40,247 nucleotides of DNA from a virus: positions 1-40,247 of IMG/VR virus record IMGVR_UViG_3300042905_001458. The stretch is one strand, 5' to 3'. Below are positions 7,344 through 38,413 of this stretch, one piece after another. The notes beneath the pieces are model-generated. The model did no database searches, was not told the origin of the DNA, and saw only the letters and a list, made by a program, of their open reading frames with translations. A program made the translations under genes and the position numbers. The number at the start of each line of letters is the position of its first letter. Positions within the stretch are counted from its first letter, which is position 1.

Positions 7344-8605
7344 TCCTGAATGACCTTGATGTTGACCATATACCTCCAAGCGTCCAAGTGGTCGGCACGT
7401 TGCCCGATGTTCTTTCTGTCGGCCTTAATAATACCTTCGTTGGCATCTACTTCGACCGTTCTTAGGTCACGATCCAAATTTAGGCATTTATCTGACACGG
7501 TGAAGTCCTCTATGTTTGCTAAAAGAAAATTACAATCCGTTCGGCTATTTGAGTGTCGCGGGTTCGGCCTTACTTCGAGTTGGCCATCTCTTAATCTAAG
7601 TAGCCGTTGTATGGTTTTGAAGTTTGATGCGTTGTCGGGTGACTGCATTGACCTTGCCGTTCCTGAGAAGTCACCCGTTACGTGCATATTATGCGACAAG
7701 TGGCCGTATTTGGCCTTTATCTGTCGTGCCGCTTCGTCAAGTGACCCGCCTTGAATTGAAAGTTCGTCAAAGATGTGGAAATGGAATCCGTTACGATCTT
7801 CCCAAACGTGGCCGAATATGACCGCGAACGGGTCAAGGTTAAAGTCGAACGAAATGTAAAGCGTCCGATGTGGTTGAAGCGATGTGAACCCGCGATGTTT
7901 AATGTGGTCGTATTGGGTCGCAAATGGTCGGATGACCTGATGAATACCCCATTGCCCATCAACCTCCACCGCGTAACGTTCGGGATTCGATGCTGCCAAC
8001 TGTTCACGAGAAATGATGTATTGAACATCAAGGTTCTCGATGTTGACGCGGTACGTTGAATGAAGGTAGAAGGTGTCCTCGCGCTGTGGCTCATGGAATC
8101 TCTTGCGTATCCAATGGTCAGGCGGAATAGACGTGTTGTACGTCATGCGAATCTGACATTTGGCGTTCTTCTTTCTGACCGAACCGTCTATCTTATCAAA
8201 GTCACTTTCGCTTATTTCCTCGGCCTCCTCTATCCAAACCTTTGTAGGGTTAACAATAGATTTGAAACGCGCTGTGTCCTTTTTACTTGACTGTTTAAGA
8301 CCGCGTGAAATAATGGAATTGCCTGTTGACGGACAATGGAACTCCATACGGGTTTCATTCACCTCGATACGTTCACTAAGACCAGAAGCCTCAATTACGG
8401 CCTTTATCTCAGCGAATTGCGAATGTCGAATAGTGTCTGAAACCTCCCTGACCATAACGCCACGGAAGTATTCAGGTGAAACAATGTCAAGTACGAAACC
8501 TATTGCCTCTTGGCGTGACTTTCCGCTACCGCGACCACCGAAACTGTGAACATAACGGTGTGGTGCTTTCAGACAATCCCAAAAGTGTTCATTGACCGTT
8601 ATCAT
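7316..8605 (-). CDS. Terminase large subunit (DNA-packaging ATPase/nuclease)
   Basis: A 429-aa protein with the complete architecture of Terminase_3/PBSX-type motors. Walker A GGRGSGKS is at residues 23-30, Walker B VWIEEAEE at 123-130, and the YNTSIPPDHWIRKRF coupling segment at about 156-170. RNase H-like nuclease residues are visible in ISFDFN (D254), GDFSG (D312) and the C-terminal ADHLDAWRYMV. It translocates DNA into the prohead through the portal and cuts concatemers. The start overlaps the end of the dehydratase gene by 17 bp. All expected catalytic motifs are present, so it should be functional. Confidence 0.95.
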   Translation of the reverse strand: MITVNEHFWDCLKAPHRYVHSFGGRGSGKSRQEAIGFVLDIVSPEYFRGVMVREVSDTIRHSQFAEIKAVIEASGLSERIEVNETRMEFHCPSTGNSIISRGLKQSSKKDTARFKSIVNPTKVWIEEAEEISESDFDKIDGSVRKKNAKCQIRMTYNTSIPPDHWIRKRFHEPQREDTFYLHSTYRVNIENLDVQYIISREQLAASNPERYAVEVDGQWGIHQVIRPFATQYDHIKHRGFTSLQPHRTLYISFDFNLDPFAVIFGHVWEDRNGFHFHIFDELSIQGGSLDEAARQIKAKYGHLSHNMHVTGDFSGTARSMQSPDNASNFKTIQRLLRLRDGQLEVRPNPRHSNSRTDCNFLLANIEDFTVSDKCLNLDRDLRTVEVDANEGIIKADRKNIGQRADHLDAWRYMVNIKVIQEWIKRKQIR

Positions 8606-9563
8606 TAATCCAGTACCCGATCATGTCATCAATAAGAGAATCAAAGGAATGTTCGGGTTTCCATCCTGTGGCATCTTTGAACCTTGAAGCGTCACCGCGT
8701 AGGTAGTGAAGTTCTTCGGGTCTTAGGTACTTTTCAGATGTTCGGACGTGCTTAATTGGGTCTAATCCAAGTTTATTGAAAACAACATCTACGAGTGTTT
8801 GAACCGAGTGAGTGATTCCAGTTGCTATCACGTAATCGACAGCTTCTGGCAATTGAAGTAGTGCGTAATGCGCCCGAACTGAATCTTTAGCGTGTGACCA
8901 ATCCCTGAATGAATTAAGGTTGCCCAATGTAAGATATTGCGATTTGCCGAGGTGAATGTTGACGGCCTCTTTCACCACCTTGTTCGTTACGAAGTTGATT
9001 CCGCGTCTTGGGCTTTCCGAATTGAACATGATACCTGAATAGACTTTCAGGCCGTAAGCGTTGCGATAGTTGGCGCAAAGGGTATGAGCGTACAGCTTGG
9101 AACACCCATAAGGCGAAACGGGATTCATTGGCGTTGTCTCGCGCTGATAACCGTCTGGGTCAACGTTGTTTCCGAACATTTCAGAGGTCGAACTATTGTA
9201 GATGCGCGTATGTGGCGAGAACTTGCGAACCGCCTCCAATATCGAAAGCGTACCACCTCCGTTCGTGTCAAGAGTGTACTGAGGGAGTTCGTATGAAATC
9301 TGAACGTGCGATTGTGCCGCGTAGTGGAATAGCAGGTCGGGTTGAACCTCGGATATTACACCCTGAATACTGTTAGGGTCTGTCAGGTCTGCGTAGTGAA
9401 GTTTAATTGATCCGTCAACGTGTAACCCTTCAATCCGCGTGGTCTGAGATTCGGGTACTGAGTTTCTGCGAATCGTTCCGTGAACTTCGTAGCCCTTCTC
9501 AATGAGTAGTTCGGCCATATATGAGGCAATTTGGCCGTTTGCCCCCGTTATCAATGCCTTCAT
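8589..9563 (-). CDS. gmd: GDP-mannose 4,6-dehydratase
   Basis: A 324-aa short-chain dehydrogenase of the extended type. The NAD(P)-binding loop TGANGQIAS is at residues 6-14, and the catalytic set is T126, E128 (STSEMFG), Y152 and K156 (YGCSK). SPRRGINFVTNKVV and GNLNSFRDWSHAKDSVRAH are signature segments of GDP-mannose 4,6-dehydratases. The last Gly of the usual GxxGxxG is Ala here. It converts GDP-D-mannose to GDP-4-keto-6-deoxymannose, the first step to GDP-L-fucose, GDP-rhamnose and related sugars. It is coupled to a glycosyltransferase upstream and to the terminase downstream. Its pathway partner, a fucose synthase, is 28 kb away at about 38 kb. Confidence 0.92.
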   Translation of the reverse strand: MKALITGANGQIASYMAELLIEKGYEVHGTIRRNSVPESQTTRIEGLHVDGSIKLHYADLTDPNSIQGVISEVQPDLLFHYAAQSHVQISYELPQYTLDTNGGGTLSILEAVRKFSPHTRIYNSSTSEMFGNNVDPDGYQRETTPMNPVSPYGCSKLYAHTLCANYRNAYGLKVYSGIMFNSESPRRGINFVTNKVVKEAVNIHLGKSQYLTLGNLNSFRDWSHAKDSVRAHYALLQLPEAVDYVIATGITHSVQTLVDVVFNKLGLDPIKHVRTSEKYLRPEELHYLRGDASRFKDATGWKPEHSFDSLIDDMIGYWINDNGQ

Positions 9564-15434: not shown

Positions 15435-15582
15435 TCTTTCGTCTTTTAATCTCTTCGGTCAACGCCTGAATTGCAAGGTCTGTGACCAGTTCCAATTCAC
15501 GGCAGTTGGCCTTTGTCGGGTTGTCGCAAACGGCATTACTCGCATCGTTCGACTGTTTAAGCAATTTAGAAAACGTCCCCAT
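15382..15582 (-). CDS. Hypothetical small protein between DnaB and RusA
   Basis: A 66-aa protein of helical character (ELVTDLAIQALTEEIKRRKN) with no family recognised. It overlaps the helicase stop by 17 bp and the RusA start by 53 bp. The long overlap with RusA lowers confidence, but without it there would be a 131-bp hole in an otherwise tiled operon. Confidence 0.5.
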   Translation of the reverse strand: MGTFSKLLKQSNDASNAVCDNPTKANCRELELVTDLAIQALTEEIKRRKNEKDKHITNVDQRSVSG

Positions 15583-16951
15583 CGTCTATGTCATCAAGGT
15601 TATCAAATGAACTACTTGGTCGCATTACTGTCGGTATCTTCTCAACCGCGTAACCAGTCACCTTCTTATTCTCAAATCTCGTTAGCGGCTTATTAAAAAA
15701 CAGTTCAATGTCACCGCAAGCCCCGTTCCTATGCTTTGCCACAACTATGTAGGCAACTCCATCATCGGGCGAAGGTTGGCCGTTCACTTCGGTCTTATCC
15801 ATTTCAGGTCGGTAGATAAACTCAACTATGTCGGCATCCTGTTCTATTGCGCCCGAATCCCGAAGGTCTGACAACTTTGGAATCTTTGCACCGCCCCGCG
15901 TTTCAACCGCCCTACTTAGTTGGCTGAGACAAATAACAGGAACATCAAGAGCCTTGGCTAACATCTTTAAACTACGGCTAACCTCTGACACCTCGTTCTC
16001 TTTGCTTCGCCCCTTTTCGGTCTTATGATTAATCAATTGAAGGTAGTCAATAAACACCACATCAAGCCCGTACTGCATTTTGACCTTTCGCGCCTTGGTT
16101 CGGATACCGTTTAACGTGAAAACATCGTCAACTATCCTAAGGTTGTTCGTGGTCAGTTGCGGGGTTAACGCGTGGTACTTGTCAAAGTCCAATGGTGTCA
16201 GTTGGCCGCGTTGAATCTTGTGCAAGAAGATGCCCGTATGTACGGCCACTAACCTTTGAAACAATTGCTCCCCACTCATTTCAAGTGAAAAGAATATCAC
16301 TTTCTTATCCTCATTCACGGCCATGTGTAACGCTTCGCACAATGTCAAAGCGGTCTTGCCCATCGAAGGACGCGCGGCACGGATAATAAGGTCGGAACGT
16401 TGCCGACCGCTATACAATTGGTCAAGTTCATCAAACCCCGTCCGTATGCCAGTGATCCCGTTTGTGGTCGATGCCTTGTCCATTGCATTTGAAACTGAGG
16501 CCAAGTATTGCGCGTTGGTCTTTTCCTTGCCTATGCCTACGGAATTGGCTATACGTTCAGCTTCGGCCATAAGCAGATCGTTGGTATCGAACACGTCCTC
16601 CGAATCGTCTGCACCCATTGCGGTCAATCGCAGCCCTAAGTCAATCTGCATCCGCTTCATTTCCCGTTCCTTCAACAAGAGACAATGTTCCTGAAACGAA
16701 TCTCCCGAATTGATTGAGCCTATGAAGTCGGTAATTGATACGCTCGTTCCTGATTTTGATAGCCTATCTTCCAGAGTAAGGAACGATACCCGTTGATCCT
16801 GACCGAACATGAACGTCAACGCTTCAAACACCTTTCGGCATTTAGAATCGCTAAAACATCCTTCGGTCAATAGGTCGGAAACGGACACGTAAAGGTCGGG
16901 CGCGGCTATCAACGAACCGATGACCTGTTTTTCAATTGCTAAAGTGTTCAT
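15566..16951 (-). CDS. dnaB: Replicative DNA helicase, DnaB family
   Basis: From the chosen ATG the protein has 461 aa, a typical DnaB length. MNTLAIEKQVIGSLI begins the N-terminal DnaB domain. The C-terminal RecA-like domain has Walker A ARPSMGKTAL at about 193-202, FFSLEMS, Walker B DVVFIDYLQLI near 298-308, and CLSQLSRAVETR and LSDLRDSGAIEQDAD further on. It unwinds DNA at the phage replication fork. The start is fixed by an ATGA overlap with the stop of the DUF6291-type gene; an in-frame start 30 codons upstream would lie deep inside that gene. All helicase motifs are intact. Confidence 0.95.
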   Translation of the reverse strand: MNTLAIEKQVIGSLIAAPDLYVSVSDLLTEGCFSDSKCRKVFEALTFMFGQDQRVSFLTLEDRLSKSGTSVSITDFIGSINSGDSFQEHCLLLKEREMKRMQIDLGLRLTAMGADDSEDVFDTNDLLMAEAERIANSVGIGKEKTNAQYLASVSNAMDKASTTNGITGIRTGFDELDQLYSGRQRSDLIIRAARPSMGKTALTLCEALHMAVNEDKKVIFFSLEMSGEQLFQRLVAVHTGIFLHKIQRGQLTPLDFDKYHALTPQLTTNNLRIVDDVFTLNGIRTKARKVKMQYGLDVVFIDYLQLINHKTEKGRSKENEVSEVSRSLKMLAKALDVPVICLSQLSRAVETRGGAKIPKLSDLRDSGAIEQDADIVEFIYRPEMDKTEVNGQPSPDDGVAYIVVAKHRNGACGDIELFFNKPLTRFENKKVTGYAVEKIPTVMRPSSSFDNLDDIDDGDVF

Positions 16952-17583
16952 GTCGGATATTGTGGCGGTCTTGGAATAAATTTTGTCACAACGGGTTCGG
17001 CCTTTGGGCTGGATTGATTCGGTAGTTGAGTATCCGTCCAAACCCTGTCTTTCAAATAGTTTATAGGGTCTTTTCTGTAAAGTGGGGTTGCCTGAACATA
17101 CTTCGGAACGTGGGCTATTATCTTAGGATATTCACGCGGGTCAATCTGTGACCACTCCCTTTGTGACGGCACTCTCGATACGCCCTTGTCATACAAACTC
17201 CAAAATGTTTCAAAAAGGTCTTGTTCATTTGCATCAAAATCTTCATCCTCATTACCATTACCATTACCATTTACATTAGGGGTTGGGTTGGGGTTAGTTA
17301 GGGGTTGTTCAGGGGTTTCTTTGGGGTTCGCTTGGCCTTTGGTTGGCCGACCTCCTTTTGACCCATGTGAAGCACCTTTTGAACCGTTTTCAAACTTACG
17401 AATGTTCGCATCAAGGTTAGGCTTAATCAGCGTCCAAATCGTTTTAGCTACTCCAGTCAATTCAGGCTCTTGAAAATTCAAGCCGTAGTCGAAAATAGCC
17501 TCGTAAAGAATTGACTTGGTTTTGTGGTCTAACCCCCGCATCGCTTCAAAGAAGCTGCGGTAAAATATCATACTATCTCGCAT
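16948..17583 (-). CDS. DUF6291-type replication protein (helicase loader/initiator candidate)
   Basis: A 211-aa protein starting MRDSMIFYRSFFEAMRGL, followed by SILYEAIFDYGLN and PELTGVAKTIWTLIKPNLD, the signature of DUF6291. A low-complexity linker follows (KGGRPTKGQ, Pro/Asn runs, NGNGNGNEDED) and then a C-terminal domain with FETFWSLYDKGVSR. This linker plus helicase adjacency resembles phage replication initiators or helicase loaders, which are usually encoded just before DnaB. The start is the ATG after the 40-aa gene's overlap; an upstream start would add a hydrophobic stretch read from another gene's region. Loader role is inference. Confidence 0.75.
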   Translation of the reverse strand: MRDSMIFYRSFFEAMRGLDHKTKSILYEAIFDYGLNFQEPELTGVAKTIWTLIKPNLDANIRKFENGSKGASHGSKGGRPTKGQANPKETPEQPLTNPNPTPNVNGNGNGNEDEDFDANEQDLFETFWSLYDKGVSRVPSQREWSQIDPREYPKIIAHVPKYVQATPLYRKDPINYLKDRVWTDTQLPNQSSPKAEPVVTKFIPRPPQYPT

Positions 17584-17741: not shown

Positions 17742-18224
17742 TTAATTCGATGCTTGCAAGGAGTTTATTTTATTCCACTTCGCTTTTCTTGCCTCATTGT
17801 CACACCAATCGTTGACCCAACTTCGCGGGTTTTCCTTAGTGGTGTGCGCACGAACATGCCTAAACTCAATAGTCGGTTTGCTCTTTCCTGTTGATACCAC
17901 CTTATTGAATGACATTCTATACTTTTCACCCGCCTTCGCCCCTCCCGTGTAGGCGTTCTGAGCAGCCTTATCGTTCGTAAGTACGTGAATTGCGTTCATT
18001 GAATCGGTGTTAACGATAATCTTTGTCACACCATCGCAACCGTGTATAACGGTCATCAAGGCATTGATTATGCACTTTATCTCGCAGTCGGTAGGGTCGC
18101 TACACTTGTCCCTAAATGTTCCTGACTTGGTTATTTTGAAAGAGTTACTAATTGCCCAAAAAGCGTACCCTCCAAGTTTGTGCGGCTTACTGAAACTCGC
18201 ATCCGTGTTAATTGTGCAAAGCAT
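17742..18224 (-). CDS. RNase HI-like ribonuclease
   Basis: A 160-aa protein with the RNase H fold landmarks: INTDASF with D8, a conserved E48 (DCEIKCIINAL), VNTDSMNAI with D74, and a C-terminal HVRAHTT plus VNDWCDNEARKA carrying H127 and D139/D142. These residues coordinate two metals for hydrolysis of RNA in RNA-DNA hybrids. In a phage replication operon the likely job is primer removal or supply of ribonucleotides from hybrids. It sits between the winged-helix gene and the DUF6291/DnaB genes. The catalytic set is complete. Confidence 0.85.
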   Translation of the reverse strand: MLCTINTDASFSKPHKLGGYAFWAISNSFKITKSGTFRDKCSDPTDCEIKCIINALMTVIHGCDGVTKIIVNTDSMNAIHVLTNDKAAQNAYTGGAKAGEKYRMSFNKVVSTGKSKPTIEFRHVRAHTTKENPRSWVNDWCDNEARKAKWNKINSLQASN

Positions 18225-18238
18225 GGTTTCTGTTTATT

Positions 18239-18460
18239 TCACTCCCCCTTCCGATACTCCATTACTCTAACAGTCTCACCGTAACGGTTTACGATGTGGA
18301 TCATTTGCCTGTGGATAGGAAACCCCGACTTCTCAAGTTCGCCTATCCGTGAAGATAGTTCGCAGATTCCGAGGTCAATGAATGCGGTTAGACGGGTCAC
18401 CTTGCCTCCGTTGTTGAAGTGGGATTGAAGCCTTTCGAGTTGGGTTGATGTGTGTTGCAT
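18239..18460 (-). CDS. Small helix-turn-helix DNA-binding protein
   Basis: From the chosen ATG it has 73 aa: QHTSTQLERLQSHFNNGGKV, then TRLTAFIDLGICELSSRIGELEKSGFPI. This is a familiar phage helix-turn-helix layout in which the second helix pair (LGICELSSRIGELEKSG) is the recognition part, followed by a beta hairpin of the winged type. The internal ATG is preferred over one 13 codons upstream because it clears the previous gene and has an A-rich leader. It may regulate early transcription; its target is unknown. Confidence 0.7.
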   Translation of the reverse strand: MQHTSTQLERLQSHFNNGGKVTRLTAFIDLGICELSSRIGELEKSGFPIHRQMIHIVNRYGETVRVMEYRKGE

Positions 18461-18471
18461 GGGTTTGGTTT

Positions 18472-19005
18472 TTATTTCTGACCTATTTGTGATTTGCATT
18501 TGTAGATGTGGCTCAATGCCAATAGTATTCCAACGTAGGGTTTTCGCTCTTTGATCCTTACTGGATAGTAATTGAAATCAGGTAGGCTTATGATTCCAAG
18601 TTCGTCCACGCTTTCTATTTCCGAATACGCTATCAGTTGAAGTTTGTTCTCGAAGTAAACGCCCTTCGCATTACTCTTGAAATCACAAAGGTATGTCGTG
18701 CCATTTCTGGTGAACTTCACATCATACCTACCTTTCCAATGTTCGCAGGAAACCGACTTCTCAGATTCAACTATTTCAGCCCCCTCGAAAAACCTGTGGT
18801 AATTAGCCCTTAGTGTCGGGTCTTCAATTTCCTTGTTCAGCTTTATCATTTGCTCAACCTGTTCATGAAATGATCGACCGACCGCCTTCGACCTGTTGTT
18901 GTGGTCTTCGAGCGAAATGCCCTCCAAGCCTATTTTATTCGCCCAATTAAGTAGGGCGGGCTTGTCGAGAAGACTAAGTAGTTGTGTTACTGATGGCTGA
19001 TTCAT
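18472..19005 (-). CDS. PD-(D/E)XK nuclease (RecB/Cas4-like)
   Basis: A 177-aa single-domain nuclease. SFHEQVEQMI gives the motif I histidine (H46/47), GRYDVKF the first catalytic Asp (D95), LCDFKSN the second Asp and Lys (D108, K110), and NKLQLIAYSEI the downstream Gln/Tyr motif (Q123, Y127). This order matches RecB-like PD-(D/E)XK exonucleases. With the ERF annealing protein at 14.1-14.8 kb it could form a phage recombination pair. It overlaps the PAPS-reductase-like gene by 32 bp, suggesting coupled translation. Confidence 0.8.
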   Translation of the reverse strand: MNQPSVTQLLSLLDKPALLNWANKIGLEGISLEDHNNRSKAVGRSFHEQVEQMIKLNKEIEDPTLRANYHRFFEGAEIVESEKSVSCEHWKGRYDVKFTRNGTTYLCDFKSNAKGVYFENKLQLIAYSEIESVDELGIISLPDFNYYPVRIKERKPYVGILLALSHIYKCKSQIGQK

Positions 19006-20218
19006 TTTTCGTTATCTGTTCGTTTATTTTTCTCTTTGCTTTGATCTCTTTGAACTGGTGGTAAGCGTCCGAAAGCGGTTGTGTCTGTCCAAGCCCCTTG
19101 CACCAATAGTCATTTCGTAAAAGTACCTTGCACATCCTTCGCCATGATGGAACCCAACACTTGTTTTCCAGATCTTCGGGTGCTTCATCAGGAATTGAGA
19201 CATAGCCGCGATCCTGCCAACCTTTGATGAACTTTTTAAACCGCTTCGAGTAGTGTTCAGATGTGGCCTTTGGCATTGTAGACAGTAGCATATTGCAGAA
19301 CGACTGCCATGTGTGTCCTTCGGGTCTATTTATCTTGTGGTATCCAGTCATGTTTCCATTTTCCTGAATGTACAATGCGCCACTATTCACACCATTCACA
19401 CGAACGACCAACCTATACCAAGTCTCAGGCTCTAAAATGTGATACAACCACAACCCCTTTCTTTGGTCGTCACCGTATGGCTGACACAATCGTTGCTGAC
19501 TGATTTTCACACCCGCCATCATCATCTTATCGTATATCCGATTATGCGGCAAGTGACTGAATTTACCATTGAACACCCAAATGTCCTCTGTTTTCCAATC
19601 GTAGATCGGATAGACGTTAAAGAGGTTTTTTGAAACCAATGTAGTCCACTTCCAACCGTTTACCATAAGCCCGTCCTTGCGCGAAACTATCGCCCTGTAT
19701 CGGTGTAATGATTCATCTGACCTGATGCCAATGAATGCAGCCGTCTTCTTGCCTTGTGAATACCACTGTCCGAATATTACCATGAACTCCTCAAACTCCA
19801 TGTTCGGAACGTAGAAATCATACTGTGAAAGGTCAGAGGCTAATTTAGGCTTATCCCTTACCCAAATGTCCTTTTTTGATTCGTCCCAACAAGCCCAACG
19901 CGGCTGAAAATTACTAACCGCATTTCGCAGTAGAAGTTCAGCACACACCCAATGCAGTTCAATGTGGTCTTTGTACATTTCGACCATGTGTTCAATATGG
20001 GTAATGGTATCGTTGTACTGAGCCTCCAAGTCGATAATTAGAAGCCCGACCTTTCGGCCTCTTTTTATAGCCTCCTCCATAACGAGGTGCGTCATTACGC
20101 TACTGTCCTTACCGCCTGAGAATGAAATGTAAATGCGTTCAAACTCATCGAATGACTTTGATATGCGTTCTCTACTTGCGTCCAGTACGCTTGATTCAAT
20201 GTATCTTTTCGTTGCCAT
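18974..20218 (-). CDS. PAPS reductase-like / DUF3440-type PP-loop protein (IbrA-like)
   Basis: A 414-aa protein with the PP-loop ATP pyrophosphatase motif SFSGGKDSS at residues 32-40, then LLIIDLEAQYNDTITHIEHM, both typical of the PAPS-reductase/DUF3440 family. FIGIRSDESLHRYRAI and NLFNVYPIYDWKTEDIWVFN follow, matching the IbrA-like subgroup. Cys residues (CWDES, QRLCQPYG, NKCW, RRMCKVLL) are scattered and no CxxC cluster is evident. PP-loop enzymes activate a substrate as an adenylate, usually for sulfur or nitrogen transfer. Two bases separate it from the ParB-like gene upstream, the IbrB-IbrA pairing known in other bacteria and phages. True substrate unknown. Confidence 0.8.
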   Translation of the reverse strand: MATKRYIESSVLDASRERISKSFDEFERIYISFSGGKDSSVMTHLVMEEAIKRGRKVGLLIIDLEAQYNDTITHIEHMVEMYKDHIELHWVCAELLLRNAVSNFQPRWACWDESKKDIWVRDKPKLASDLSQYDFYVPNMEFEEFMVIFGQWYSQGKKTAAFIGIRSDESLHRYRAIVSRKDGLMVNGWKWTTLVSKNLFNVYPIYDWKTEDIWVFNGKFSHLPHNRIYDKMMMAGVKISQQRLCQPYGDDQRKGLWLYHILEPETWYRLVVRVNGVNSGALYIQENGNMTGYHKINRPEGHTWQSFCNMLLSTMPKATSEHYSKRFKKFIKGWQDRGYVSIPDEAPEDLENKCWVPSWRRMCKVLLRNDYWCKGLGQTQPLSDAYHQFKEIKAKRKINEQITKNESAISNTTT

Positions 20219-20219
20219 T

Positions 20220-21347
20220 TCAGTAGATATTTACTTGTCGTCCGATAGATAACGCCTCCTCAATTGTCAACGCGTCCATTTGGTATTTATCCCTCCACTT
20301 GTTCAGGTACACAAGTGCTAACTCATTCGCCTGATCCATTTGCTCTTGGCTCATTAGGTTGAACCCTGCACAATACTTGGACGGAACTCCCGTTGCGTAG
20401 CACATAGCGGCCTGACCTAACCACGCAATTCTATTCATTGCGGAATTAGTAAGGTAGTGCTCGCATGAATTGACCCATTCGGTTATTACTCCTGAAAGTG
20501 CCGCCTCAAATCTTGGTGAATCTGAAAGGAAATCAGCATAAGCCCTTTCGCACTCCTCGCCCGTCATTCCAACTTTCTTTGAAGCATAGAATCCCGCCTT
20601 GTGACATTCCCACTTATCGAACGTGTGAAATATTCGGGTCGGGTCGCTTGTGTTGACGGTTCTGTAATCTTCCAACTCCTCTTCTGTAAGGTCGTCTGTG
20701 ATAGGCTCAAATGAAGATTCCGTGTCCGAAGATTCCCATGCCTTACTGAACTCATCATTCTTGAAAATGTCCTGCAACCCCGTTATCTGACAAAGGCGTA
20801 GGATTTCGTCTTCGTCCATTCCAAGTTCACGCGCAATGCGTTCGTTTTTCCAGTTCCTGTTTTTCAGTTCGAGGATTATCTCGCTCATTGCATCCACCTG
20901 ATGCTTTCCCCTTGCGCGGTTGTGGCGTATCGTTGAAGCTATCCTGTCATTCTTGCCCGACTGTTCCTTGCGTATGGAAACGATCGGAGCGTAACCATGT
21001 ACGCGGCCTTGCACGATCTTCGATTCCCTACATACCCGCGTCCTATGAAACCCGTCCACAACTTCAATTTTTCCATCATAAGGATAGGTAACGACTGGTT
21101 GTGTGTAGCCATCATTCATTATTGATACTTCGAGCAACTCCATTTCAGGTGGAGCGACCTTGTTCGGGTTGTAGTCATTTGCGACTATCGAACCTATCGG
21201 CATCCATTCAACGAAATCAACAGGCTCGTTTTTGAACGGTGACAACTCATGTATGTGTCGCCTTAGTTCATTTATGGCAGTCACCTTTTCGGACATATCC
21301 ATCGGATGCAAATAATCCGTTATCTGTTTTTCAATGTTTTGATTCAT
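20220..21347 (-). CDS. ParB-like protein with IbrB-type domain
   Basis: From the chosen ATG it has 375 aa. The ParB/sulfiredoxin-like domain shows NDYNPNKVAPPEMELL at about 57-72, GYTQPVVTYPYDGKIEVV, and DGFHRTRVC at about 98-106. A helix-turn-helix region follows (NRNWKNERIARELGMDEDEI, about 163-182). The C-terminal domain contains WVNSCEHYLTNSAMNRIAWL at about 297-316, a conserved block of unknown function. This ATG is preferred because the 17 extra residues from an upstream ATG (NYYFYGNKIRK) are translated AT-rich leader. It pairs with the PP-loop gene. Nuclease or modification activity is not established. Confidence 0.75.
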   Translation of the reverse strand: MNQNIEKQITDYLHPMDMSEKVTAINELRRHIHELSPFKNEPVDFVEWMPIGSIVANDYNPNKVAPPEMELLEVSIMNDGYTQPVVTYPYDGKIEVVDGFHRTRVCRESKIVQGRVHGYAPIVSIRKEQSGKNDRIASTIRHNRARGKHQVDAMSEIILELKNRNWKNERIARELGMDEDEILRLCQITGLQDIFKNDEFSKAWESSDTESSFEPITDDLTEEELEDYRTVNTSDPTRIFHTFDKWECHKAGFYASKKVGMTGEECERAYADFLSDSPRFEAALSGVITEWVNSCEHYLTNSAMNRIAWLGQAAMCYATGVPSKYCAGFNLMSQEQMDQANELALVYLNKWRDKYQMDALTIEEALSIGRQVNIY

Positions 21348-21408
21348 TTTCCTTATCTTATTTCCGTAAAAATAATAATTAATTTCGTCCGTTTGCATCT
21401 ATCCGTAA

Positions 21409-25525: not shown

Positions 25526-25860
25526 GGCTTCGGGTTTAATGGTTTGCGCTTGGCCTTTGGTGTTTCGATTACATTGTGCATCGCCATTGATAGCTGATTT
25601 ACCGACACTTTCAGCCCATCAATCTCGCTCTTCATCGCCTCATTTTCCTTCAAACAATCCTTACGATCTTCGCGGCTTCGGTCCAGTTCTTCGCGGGTGT
25701 AATCGGCAAACTCCTTGTACTCGGTCTTTAGCATTCGCAGTTCCTGAACGGCCTCTGATTTAGCCGCCCGTCTTTCGGCTGCAACGCCTCCGAGTAACCC
25801 GCCCGCACCACCTAGCAGCGCAGACACCCCATGTGATATAGTGTCCATTATGTCAATCAT
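25522..25860 (-). CDS. Small coiled-coil protein with Gly-rich hydrophobic N-terminus
   Basis: A 112-aa protein with a Gly/Ala-rich hydrophobic N-terminus (HGVSALLGGAGGLLGGVAAE, about 10-30) and a long charged coiled coil (about 35-95, KTEYKEFADYTREELDRSRE), ending in a Pro/Lys-rich tail (KAKRKPLNPKP). It resembles the accessory membrane proteins that accompany holin-like genes in Bacteroidota phages. It may anchor or regulate the holin-like protein encoded immediately downstream. Alternative start 4 codons further in. Confidence 0.55.
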   Translation of the reverse strand: MIDIMDTISHGVSALLGGAGGLLGGVAAERRAAKSEAVQELRMLKTEYKEFADYTREELDRSREDRKDCLKENEAMKSEIDGLKVSVNQLSMAMHNVIETPKAKRKPLNPKP

Positions 25861-25863
25861 TGG

Positions 25864-26049
25864 TCATGTCAGTTCAGGTCGTTCAATGTTTTCGTTCAGC
25901 CATTCGTGGTAATCCTCAACGGTGTCGAATTGAATGTCAGGAATCAGGTCATGGTCAGACACAACGTAGGCGGTTGTGCCGTCCTTGAGTGCCAACTCAA
26001 CAGGAATGACCCCCTCAATATTCGGCTTGGTGTGGTGTATCTGATACAT
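25864..26049 (-). CDS. Hypothetical small acidic protein
   Basis: A 61-aa protein (GVIPVELALKDGTTAYVVSD, then FDTVEDYHEWLNENIERPEL) of mixed alpha/beta type. It starts one base inside the stop of the large fibre gene (TAATG). A short acidic C-terminal helix suggests a partner-binding element, but no family is recognised. Possibly a chaperone or clip for the fibre; inference from position only. Confidence 0.55.
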   Translation of the reverse strand: MYQIHHTKPNIEGVIPVELALKDGTTAYVVSDHDLIPDIQFDTVEDYHEWLNENIERPELT

Positions 26050-28235
26050 TAGAATGCTCCGTAAGTAGGTGAATTAGCGGCTGTGGCGTTGATGCCTAAA
26101 CGTCCGTAGTCGTTCGGGTTCGATTCAAGCCAATACCACACATCAGGAAATTGACCCAATGTAACGGGGTGTGAACCGCTCCCTGCATTGTAGTAAGACG
26201 TGACCTGTGCGAGACTTGAATTAAAGGAGTTGAAGAATGCAACGTCCTTTATTTTTCCACTCAACTCAAATCCCCCTGACCAATATCGGCCAATGTACGC
26301 GCCTTGGTTAAGTGGCAATAGGTCGGTAGAACTTCCGCTTGTAAGTGTTAACGCAACCCCGTTAAGATACACGGTAAGGTTGTTTCCGAGTGCCGTCTTT
26401 TGAATGACCAAATTGTAACGAGTTGCCGTTGATACCACTTGATTGTATGTCCTGAGAGAACCCCCGACATTGACATAAACGTGAGTAGCATCCACCTCCA
26501 CGAACATATTTGATGCCGTACCCGCGAATATGATCGGCAGGTTCGCCAACGATGTGGCATTAAACCACATTGACATCTGCCATATGTTCGCGTTCAAGAG
26601 TCTGTTGAATGTGCCGTTAGCCGTTGATAGCCAGTTCGTGCCGTTCAATATAAGCCCGTTTGCAATGACATAGCTGACCGTAACATCCACGTCATCGCTT
26701 ACCCATGCAGACCCGTTCGTGGCCTCCACGCTTATCTTTTGCGCACCCGTGTAAACTGCCGTCCAGTTCAAGGTATTACCCGCTTGCGTTGTACGCGTCA
26801 AAGTGCCATCTTTCAATGGTACAATGAACGTGTAAGACGTTGGCGTTATGCCTGTCGGTGTTGCGGTTATCAGTACAACATCTCCGAAGTTGGGTGTGTC
26901 ATCGGATAGCGTTACGGCTAACGATGGCGAAGCGGGACACGTAGGAATTATCCAAGCAGACCCGTTCCAACTTCCTGCTGCAACACCACCTTGCAATACG
27001 TCCAAGTCTTCCGAACCTCCGCTTGGAATGTCTCCAGTTGCTCCAAGTGAAGCCCCGTTGATAGTGACCGTTGCATCAGGTGCGGTGATGACAACCGCCA
27101 ATTGACCCGAACGGATTGAACCCGTTCCGAGAACGTTTGAAGCTGTGTCTCTAAGCGAATACGTGCCATCAGGTGCGGTTATATTCGCGCTTGAGTCCGA
27201 TTGTATCGGTGTAGTTGAGATGGTGTTGTTTGCCGTGTCCTTAACTACAGCGGTCGCATCAGGTGCTGTGATGTTCGCGCTTGCCTCGGCTGCTATCGAA
27301 CCCGTGCTAATAGTCGTGCCTCCTGATTTCTTTAGCGTGTAGGTTGAGTTGGCTACGATGGACGGATTGGCCGAAGTGCCTACTGCCGTGCCTGCCGTGT
27401 TGCGGATAAGTTGGTTATTCGTGCCACCGCTTACGGTCGTGCCAATAGTTGTTCCGTTGACCTGTTGGGTTACGTCTGCACATGGCGGTATCACACACTC
27501 GCTATCAAGTAACTCGGTCTGCGCGGCCAATGTCAAGCAATCAAACACATCGACCACCACATCTTCAGGAAGAACGTCTGCTAACTGTTCGCATAGTGGA
27601 ACACATAGTTCACCTTCAATGCAAGCTAACTGTTCGGGTGTAAGTCTTTCAAGAGTCGCTGGATTACACCACGGAAACATTTGTAGAATGTCTGGATAAT
27701 CAGCACAGTCAGCCCAACATGAGCGAGTCGCCACAACCGTAACCGTAAGGTCTATCATAACCATTGACCGCGAATATTTCGGTTCGGTTATCGGTGTTGT
27801 AAATTCCTCTTGCCATATCTTGGGCGTGTCGGTTTCAATTGAGGTTACCGTGATGACAGCCCGATTTGCGCCAAGTATCGTGCGTAGGTCTTGATTCGTT
27901 CCCGTAAGAATGTTTGCAACGTCCTGAGAATAAACTTCTGGGTTATTGTCATCGCGCCTAATCATTGCCACAAATCGCAATGGGTAAGTTGCTTGTATCG
28001 GTTTCTCGGCTGTTCTTCCATCAACGGTTTCTAGCGTTCTAGCGGCACGAAGTCTGAAATAGCTTACACTACCACCGTCAACCTCAACGGGCTTGAAATT
28101 GCCACCACCTACATACTCGTAAGGCATTGTTGTGCCGTCAGAACCACTACGCCTTTCAACGATGCAGTATGTTCGTTCGATGTTTCCAACAGTTGAAACG
28201 AGCGTATTGAGATATTGTAATATTAGGTCTGTCAT
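26049..28235 (-). CDS. Large modular structural protein with Cys-rich hinge, beta repeats and LamG-like domain
   Basis: A 728-aa protein in four parts. Residues 1-170 are a mixed alpha/beta domain like tail-completion proteins. Residues 173-252 hold nine Cys (C173, C177, C190, C205, C211, C215, C233, C247, C252), an unusual density. From about 260 to 420, three or so repeats of about 30 residues carry ITAPDAT/ITAPDGT, giving DNA repeats near 27074, 27167 and 27257. From about 530 to the end, a concanavalin/LamG-like domain (ANGLILNGTNWLSTANGTFN, later VYLNGVAL, IKDVAFFN) probably binds carbohydrate. Likely a head-tail or fibre protein that recognises a glycan; exact location unknown. Confidence 0.7.
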   Translation of the reverse strand: MTDLILQYLNTLVSTVGNIERTYCIVERRSGSDGTTMPYEYVGGGNFKPVEVDGGSVSYFRLRAARTLETVDGRTAEKPIQATYPLRFVAMIRRDDNNPEVYSQDVANILTGTNQDLRTILGANRAVITVTSIETDTPKIWQEEFTTPITEPKYSRSMVMIDLTVTVVATRSCWADCADYPDILQMFPWCNPATLERLTPEQLACIEGELCVPLCEQLADVLPEDVVVDVFDCLTLAAQTELLDSECVIPPCADVTQQVNGTTIGTTVSGGTNNQLIRNTAGTAVGTSANPSIVANSTYTLKKSGGTTISTGSIAAEASANITAPDATAVVKDTANNTISTTPIQSDSSANITAPDGTYSLRDTASNVLGTGSIRSGQLAVVITAPDATVTINGASLGATGDIPSGGSEDLDVLQGGVAAGSWNGSAWIIPTCPASPSLAVTLSDDTPNFGDVVLITATPTGITPTSYTFIVPLKDGTLTRTTQAGNTLNWTAVYTGAQKISVEATNGSAWVSDDVDVTVSYVIANGLILNGTNWLSTANGTFNRLLNANIWQMSMWFNATSLANLPIIFAGTASNMFVEVDATHVYVNVGGSLRTYNQVVSTATRYNLVIQKTALGNNLTVYLNGVALTLTSGSSTDLLPLNQGAYIGRYWSGGFELSGKIKDVAFFNSFNSSLAQVTSYYNAGSGSHPVTLGQFPDVWYWLESNPNDYGRLGINATAANSPTYGAF

Positions 28236-36828: not shown

Positions 36829-37520
36829 ATTGCAGATTGGCGTATGGTTCGATAAACTCTGTGGTTAACTCCTGCGGGTGTTTGACTTGGCATGAAGTTC
36901 TCAATCCATTGGAAATGTCGTGTCATGTAGTTCCATTGCTCAGTTGAGTATTGGACGTTGTGCCTCATGTGGTAGAACATAGTTTCCTTGACCAAATACG
37001 CGGGAATCTTATTCGTTATGAATCTGTATGGGATCCAGTAATCCCACCACGTCTGCCCCATGCAGAACATAGACTGAGGTATCAAGTGATAAAAGTTCTT
37101 GTGAATAACAAACACATCAAACCCAAAGGAATAGACTGTCGGGTTCTGAAAGTCTCCGTTATGGTCGTGCCTGTTGCTGAATATCAACCCATGATGCGCG
37201 TGGTTCAGATAGTCGTTAAGTCGGCTTGTTTCGTCCTTTATAACGATGTCCGAATTGATAAGCATTACTTGCTCAAATCCGTGTTCTTTGGCGTAATCAA
37301 TGAACGATGAAATCGGAACGTAAGGCACTTTGAAAAGTCCTTCCATCGTTCGGAAGCATGGCACAAACTCAACATCATAATCAGCTTTCAGAACCTCAAT
37401 CTCGGAAGGTGCGTTGAAGGACAAGACCCGAAAGCCCAATTCCTTCCAGCTTTCAATCGCTTGTTTCTGCACGTCACCGTTCGTGTGCTTCGGTGAAATT
37501 GATGTCATTACTACTGTCAT
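36825..37520 (-). CDS. Second glycosyltransferase-like protein
   Basis: A 231-aa protein with EQVMLINSDIVIKDE near 83-97, an NSD variant of the DxD motif, and a conserved block FGFDVFVIHKNFYHLIP and MGQTWWDYWIPYRFI. Similar transferases add single sugars in phage and bacterial cassettes. The ATG overlaps the fucose synthase stop as ATGA, so donor synthesis and transfer are directly coupled. It may use GDP-fucose, but donor preference cannot be read from sequence. Confidence 0.65.
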   Translation of the reverse strand: MTVVMTSISPKHTNGDVQKQAIESWKELGFRVLSFNAPSEIEVLKADYDVEFVPCFRTMEGLFKVPYVPISSFIDYAKEHGFEQVMLINSDIVIKDETSRLNDYLNHAHHGLIFSNRHDHNGDFQNPTVYSFGFDVFVIHKNFYHLIPQSMFCMGQTWWDYWIPYRFITNKIPAYLVKETMFYHMRHNVQYSTEQWNYMTRHFQWIENFMPSQTPAGVNHRVYRTIRQSAI

Positions 37521-38413
37521 GCGTGACGGCTAAGGTAGTCGTTATATGCTGTTTTCAAAGATTGACCCATGTCGAAATCAACCGACCCGTGACGGCTTGA
37601 ATCCATTAGCTTGCGTGGCGTTCCGTTAGGATATTCGCTATTCCAAATGACCCGACCATTGAACCCGACAACCGTAGCAATTATTTCGGCCAGTTCTGAT
37701 ACTGAGAACTCTTGACCCGAACCGATGTTCAGGTAATTGTGATCCGTTCCGTTTTGCATTAGTTCAACGATTGACGCGGCCAAAGAATCTACACACATGA
37801 CTTCCCTTAACGGTGTTCCATCGCCCCAAAGTTCGACCGTGTCTGAGCCGCTTTCTTTTGCATCATGGAATTTACGGATAATTGAAGCGATAACGTGCGA
37901 ATCATGCGGGTGGTAATTGTCACCGATACCAAATAGATTAGGCGGCATGACCGTAAAGAAATCGCACCCGTATTGGTGACGGTACGCCTCACACATTTTC
38001 AGCCCTGCTATCTTGGCTATTGCGTACGGCTCGTTGGTGGGTTCAAGTCCTCCCGTCAACAAATACTCCTCTTTGATAGGCTGTTGCGCGAACTTCGGAT
38101 ATACACATGATGAGCCAAGGAATATAAGCCGCTTAACACCGTTAAGATAAGCCGCATGGATAACGTTGGCCTGAATTATCAGGTTATCGTAAATGAACTC
38201 CGCCCGATACTTATTATTGGCATTGATGCCTCCGACCTTTGCAGCGCATAGATACACGTATTCGGGTCTGTTTTCCGCAAAGAACGCATTAACCTCGGCT
38301 TGATTCCGAAGGTCTAATTCGCTTGAAGTTCGGGTTATCACGTTGTCCTTTCCGAGCCGTCTGACTATTGCCGACCCGACCATTCCAGTATGACCAGCTA
38401 CATATACGCTCAT
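37517..38413 (-). CDS. fcl: GDP-L-fucose synthase
   Basis: A 298-aa epimerase-reductase of the SDR superfamily. GHTGMVGSAI (7-16) binds NADPH, and the catalytic set is S101/S102, C103, Y130, K134 (YAIAK) and H173. NLFGIGDNYHPHDSHVIASI and VELWGDGTPLREVM are signatures of this enzyme. It converts GDP-4-keto-6-deoxymannose, made by the dehydratase at 8.6-9.6 kb, to GDP-L-fucose. The ATG overlaps the immunity gene as ATGA. All active-site residues are present, so it should be functional; product identity rests on family knowledge. Confidence 0.92.
   Translation of the reverse strand: MSVYVAGHTGMVGSAIVRRLGKDNVITRTSSELDLRNQAEVNAFFAENRPEYVYLCAAKVGGINANNKYRAEFIYDNLIIQANVIHAAYLNGVKRLIFLGSSCVYPKFAQQPIKEEYLLTGGLEPTNEPYAIAKIAGLKMCEAYRHQYGCDFFTVMPPNLFGIGDNYHPHDSHVIASIIRKFHDAKESGSDTVELWGDGTPLREVMCVDSLAASIVELMQNGTDHNYLNIGSGQEFSVSELAEIIATVVGFNGRVIWNSEYPNGTPRKLMDSSRHGSVDFDMGQSLKTAYNDYLSRHA

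Follow-up and report, generated by a model that had tools for sequence, protein, structure and literature searches.

What the paired genes of a ParB-like protein and a PP-loop protein do in a phage is the question raised by this locus. A preliminary description of the window, by which we mean the whole stretch of 40,247 bases analyzed here (a tailed-phage record with terminase, portal, Mu Gam-like, Erf, and DnaB genes), had placed an IbrB/IbrA-like pair at positions 18974-21398 and regarded the function of such pairs as an open question. The literature searched agrees on the latter point: for IbrAB/YbdNM genes, which many phages, plasmids, and bacteria carry, it yielded annotations and citations to prophage activation, and no chemical or biochemical activity.

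The IbrB-IbrA pair and its surroundings

Both open reading frames were present on the minus strand, each beginning with ATG: the IbrB-like one at 20220-21398 (392 aa) and the IbrA-like one at 18974-20218 (414 aa), homologous to YbdM and YbdN, respectively. They are separated by a single nucleotide (position 20219) and not by the 2 bp first given. The order IbrB, then IbrA, was kept in all 128 related loci containing both genes, with a spacing that in most cases lies between -1 and +2 nt, and the adjacency is therefore not due to chance; with ibrA and ibrB adjacent, the locus belongs to the IbrAB systems. When the window was compared with its relatives, synonymous sites were saturated and dN was 0.12-0.24 for IbrA, IbrB, and the C module described below, so that all three are under purifying selection.

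The next gene of the operon, at 18472-19005 on the minus strand, overlaps IbrA by 32 nt and encodes a PD-(D/E)XK/Cas4-like exonuclease (PHROG 298, E 3.4e-9; PADLOC Cas4, E 1.8e-4). Also downstream of the pair are genes for an HTH_39 protein (18239-18499), RNase H (17742-18224), DnaB (15566-17041), and a DUF6291 protein; the nuclease, RNase H, and helicase neighbors of the preliminary description were thus all recovered, and Erf as well. A conserved trio of IbrB, IbrA, and nuclease was considered and rejected. A PD-(D/E)XK gene lies beside the pair in just 4 of the 110 lineages, so the exonuclease is an occasional partner and not a core part. The same exonuclease family, PHROG 298, also adjoins IbrA in Mycobacterium phage Nebkiss. 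In that phage, gp102 (L133:3484-4380) is annotated as a DNA helicase, but its matches are to an exonuclease in PHROG (E 2.5e-36) and to PDDEXK_1. The window additionally carries two nucleotide-sugar dehydratase/epimerase genes (8589-9563 and 37517-38413; GDP_Man_Dehyd, E 6e-102; Epimerase, E 3e-59), FkbM-type and Methyltransf_24 domains, and a DUF6492 protein, a set whose annotations suggest glycan or virion decoration.

The core of IbrA (19226..20218, minus strand) consists of a PP-loop ATP-pyrophosphatase-type domain and part of DUF3440, as judged from Pfam, identity to YbdN, and structural neighbors. The protein scored 121 bits against DUF3440 (cut-off 25) and 57.3 bits against PAPS_reduct (cut-off 22.5; E 2.7e-15), matched PHROG 2302 (E 9e-85), and is 40.6% identical to E. 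coli YbdN over 392 aa, D module included. With both Pfam domains above their curated cut-offs, it is a member of the IbrA/YbdN family. In the PP-loop SGGKDSS (residues 34-40; 20099..20119, minus strand), the positions S34, G36, K37, D38, and S39 of the S-x-G-K-D-S pattern do not vary in any of the 33 diverse relatives compared, some of them as little as 36% identical, which is the opposite of the degenerate loop that had been envisaged as an objection. Further invariant residues were found in the regions GIRxxES..R and YP[IV][YF]DW...D.W of the same alignment. No cysteine of IbrA is invariant among these 33 relatives; its own cysteines therefore cannot be a conserved sulfur carrier.

The predicted structure of IbrA (pLDDT 84) has CysH, FAD synthase, CysD, and other ATP-pyrophosphatases as fold neighbors, and its structural neighbors include the adenylating enzymes ATP sulfurylase CysD (1zun), FAD synthases, TilS/MesJ, and GMP synthetase. 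The earlier label "PAPS-reductase-like" holds for the fold but not beyond it. CysH has SSFGIQAAV and ECGLH, whereas IbrA has SFSGGKDSS and no ECGxH, and its score against the CysH model was 27.8 bits (cut-off 154). Since GKDS is present in IbrA and CysD and absent from CysH, "PAPS reductase" describes the fold only, and the site that is kept appears, from its motif, to be of the adenylating type. An assignment to DndC was also rejected (TIGR03183, 15.9 bits against a cut-off of 290; no invariant Cys in the 33 relatives). Neither DndD nor DndE was found among the scanned window proteins or the recurrent neighbor families listed.

The core of IbrB (20682..21398, minus strand) is a ParB-like domain followed by the HTH segment already pointed out in the preliminary description, which is HTH-like and in the same region as in YbdM. 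Over its residues 18-221, IbrB shares 47.8% identity with the whole of E. coli YbdM (205 aa, E 3e-70), a homology that covers both parts and makes the protein a member of the IbrB/YbdM family. IbrB matched PHROG 2159, "ParB-like partition protein" (E 1.6e-68), and scored just 17.8 bits against Pfam ParB_N, under the cut-off of 26.3. The motifs DGFHR and TIRHNRARGxH are near invariant in 93 lineages. Two other identities were discarded: sulfiredoxin, as the catalytic Cys of GCHR is replaced by Phe in DGFHR, and ParAB partition, as no ParA occurred among the scanned window proteins or the top neighbor families listed.

A modular, mobile cassette

Most was learned from the C-terminal block of IbrB (CEHYLTN...NRIAWLGQA). 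It had been noticed as a conserved extension of the ParB-like protein, and it is real and, moreover, a separable third component, here called C (IbrB residues 254-392; 20220..20639, minus strand; HMM match 174 bits). In the window and in 37 other IbrA lineages, C is joined to IbrB in one protein, whereas in 60 it is a standalone gene; in several relatives, this gene lies between ibrB and ibrA. Among isolated phages, it stands alone in Mycobacterium phages Gaia/Nebkiss, Pseudomonas phage Amjad_SA, Microcystis phage Mwe-JY13, and Pseudoalteromonas phage XCL1123. C matched no family in Pfam or PHROG. Its model (pLDDT 94.1) is all-helical and gave no Foldseek-PDB match below E 2 and a single match in BFVD, an unnamed viral protein of 116 aa. 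The lone PDB sequence match, 7rpr (E 0.008 over 45 aa), looks like chance and was rejected.

A profile search from C alone returned at least 552 loci in viral contigs, none in plasmids, and 4 in 84,980 cellular genomes, the last figure being a lower bound because the scan depends on a short conserved pattern and on one first-sequence confirmation. In the 84 loci examined, the viral ones being the best 80 of the at least 552, IbrA was found within a few kilobases in 83 and IbrB likewise in 83, the exceptions lying at contig ends. The reverse search of viral contigs, starting from IbrA, found C in 63 of 66 loci, and the remaining three were edge fragments. Among 284 surveyed genomes from a single phylum, DUF3440 and C both occurred only in one already-known genome, a result with no bearing on whether C exists apart from the pair. 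While the IbrAB pair itself is already known and common, C as a separable component of the cassette is new here, and so are the separable D module and the cupin described below.

A fourth module, D, comprises the last ~65 residues of IbrA (PSWRR..LLRND...LGF; residues 332-396, IPDEAP..PSWRRMCKVLLRNDYWCKGLG; 19031..19225, minus strand; HMM 119 bits) and is a separate gene in 19 of the 110 IbrA lineages. A single case was found (L170:4074-5336) of a protein joining D to a phage DNA polymerase processivity factor (PHROG 947, E 1e-34). Because C and D are either fused to IbrB and IbrA or encoded next to them as genes of their own, with the order permuted, physical contact among the products is suggested.

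Relatives of IbrA were found in 216 phage and 606 plasmid records. The distances of IbrA and IbrB are correlated (r 0.85; permuted maximum 0.11), as are those of IbrA and C (0.58). Yet of the flanking genes, four on each side, only 8% were homologous at 85-95% IbrA identity and 3% at 75-85%; the resulting conclusion that the cassette travels as one unit between otherwise unrelated phages is also new here. It lands mostly among replication and recombination genes, such as those for DnaB, SF2/SNF2 helicases, SSB, PD-(D/E)XK, YqaJ, and DNA polymerases. Lineages were defined by single linkage at 85% and the relatives' genes are mechanical open reading frames, which affects the counts and not the linkage result.

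Some relatives have enzymes attached. Absent from the window, an ectoine-synthase-like cupin is encoded within the cassette, next to it, or as a domain of IbrB in 16 lineages. It scored 116 bits against Pfam Ectoine_synth (cut-off 27; E 1e-33) and E 1e-18 against solved ectoine synthases, and in an alignment with 5onn its Glu, Tyr, and His active-site positions, which we take to be the iron ligands of ectoine synthase, were invariant in 16 of 16 lineages; it can thus be classed as an ectoine synthase family member. In a few lineages, the cassette is directly flanked by genes for GNAT acetyltransferases. On one set of three near-identical contigs, a second PP-loop protein (L062:4065-4916; PAPS_reduct, E 7e-10) abuts ibrB, with a GNAT gene after ibrA. 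Four phages, with hosts in Streptococcus, Lactobacillus, Fusobacterium, and Flavobacterium, encode homologous SNF2-type helicases, 29-40% identical, immediately next to IbrAB or at a distance of one gene (L229:3336-4505, L231:2051-3220, L230:6671-7867, and L225:3240-4451). Apart from these, phages of Mycobacterium, Rhizobium, Arthrobacter, and Bacillus (L221, L222, L223, and L224) have a second, distinct ParB-like gene adjacent to IbrAB or in its vicinity, in some of them with terminase genes nearby.

Possible roles of the cassette

The intact ATP site, the cupin and GNAT partners together with the ParB/HTH protein, the replication context, the fusion of D to a clamp, and the helicases lead us to favor a system that would use ATP to modify phage DNA or nucleotides; DNA or nucleotide modification as such is plausible and draws support from the cupin, the GNAT, and the replication genes. 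The pair would be the core of a mobile enzyme cassette whose target is phage DNA, or nucleotides bound for DNA, early in infection. IbrA would bind ATP, adenylate a substrate, and release pyrophosphate, while IbrB, through its ParB/sulfiredoxin fold and HTH, would bind DNA and/or nucleotide and position IbrA on the target. The phage-only C and the small D may be structural adaptors in the same complex, and in some phages the cupin and the GNAT could be accessory tailoring enzymes acting on the product. The outcome would be chemically modified phage DNA, shielded from host nucleases or marked for phage gene expression.

This reading is put forward tentatively, at somewhat less than an even chance, because no product was seen and the sole phenotype on record is activation of genes. 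The original IbrAB pair reportedly activates the prophage eib genes (Sandt et al. 2002). Several observations also count against modification. No modified nucleoside was reported for any carrier in the literature found, and E. coli K-12, which has a chromosomal ybdNM, is not known to have a matching DNA modification. Besides IbrA being devoid of an invariant cysteine, no sulfur donor, DndD, or DndE is among the recurrent neighbors listed; the cupin and the GNAT are confined to a minority of lineages, and the fusion of D to the clamp is one case. A bolder version is improbable: the operons with IbrA, cupin, IbrB, C, and D might form a previously unrecognised phage DNA/dNTP hypermodification pathway, in which IbrA would adenylate a base carbonyl for attachment of an amine or amino acid (as TilS does), the GNAT would acetylate, and the cupin would close a ring. 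C, a new-fold, phage-only family, would then fit the host-type IbrAB pair to a phage task.

The likeliest alternative, although we consider it unlikely, is transcription control, with IbrB binding specific DNA through its ParB/HTH parts and an ATP-switched IbrA co-activating phage or host genes, with no covalent modification. The HTH-like segment agrees with this, the copies in S. thermophilus and E. coli phages are annotated "co-activator of prophage gene expression", and the family name and only known phenotype of E. coli IbrAB reportedly derive from eib gene activation. However, the invariant ATP-pyrophosphatase site, the cupin with its intact active-site positions, and the GNAT partners point to catalysis, and the cassette moves between unrelated phages that differ in regulatory layout.

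Also unlikely, and ranked below transcription control, is a role in anti-defence or defence acting on small molecules or proteins, whereby a host signaling nucleotide would be altered or destroyed, or a host nuclease blocked, and phage DNA would stay unmodified. A mobile two-gene cassette with unrelated flanks that is frequent on plasmids as well would suit such a role, and ParB-superfamily proteins have been proposed as nucleotide-degrading effectors (PMC10853773). Nevertheless, no PADLOC defence model was matched except for weak PP-loop matches to DndC/BrxP, and the neighborhoods are strongly biased to replication and recombination and not to counter-defence clusters. Modification of host or phage RNA by IbrA during infection, in the manner of TilS, TtcA, or NcsA, is very improbable, for although TtuA, NcsA, and MesJ/TilS are among its structure matches and tRNA is a common substrate of PP-loop enzymes with this fold, the constant partner is of ParB type, the context is DNA metabolism, no tRNA gene lies in the window, and IbrA has no invariant Fe-S cysteines.

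For the proposed modification of phage DNA or nucleotides, the modular and laterally moving viral cassette, with its phage-specific C and enzyme partners, offers handles on co-purification and catalytic residues, and Gaia/Nebkiss, Mwe-JY13, Amjad_SA, and XCL1123 are isolated carriers suited to modified-DNA analysis.

Comparison with known systems

A precedent for a ParB-superfamily protein and a PP-loop enzyme acting in DNA modification is DndB with DndC in phosphorothioation (PMC10853773). The likeness ends with this pairing, as IbrA is far below the DndC model cut-offs and differs in its cysteines and neighbors as described above. The YbdN-YbdM (IbrA-IbrB) pair of E. coli, the nearest characterized relative, whose genes are repressed by CitR (PMC9068703), likewise consists of adjacent homologous genes for DUF3440 and ParB-like proteins. 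In the ybd locus, however, ybdN precedes ybdM, the reverse of the window, and C is absent from YbdM and from the locus. Homologous IbrA/IbrB pairs occur in phages of S. thermophilus, Lactobacillus, Fusobacterium, and Flavobacterium, the retrieved representatives of which have no C; in several of them, a gene for an SNF2-type helicase adjoins the pair or lies close to it.

Among isolated phages, the closest match comes from Microcystis phage Mwe-JY13 (genes 25743-28028), with 63% identity in IbrA and 54% in IbrB plus C; there, C is the separate gene between IbrB and IbrA and is annotated as ParB/sulfiredoxin. Genes 103-107 of Mycobacterium phages Gaia/Nebkiss contain IbrA, IbrB, C, and D, as the window does, but in the order A, B, C, D, with an N-terminal ectoine-synthase-like cupin on IbrB and a GIY-YIG-like gene (L133:6631-7005) inserted between ibrB and C.
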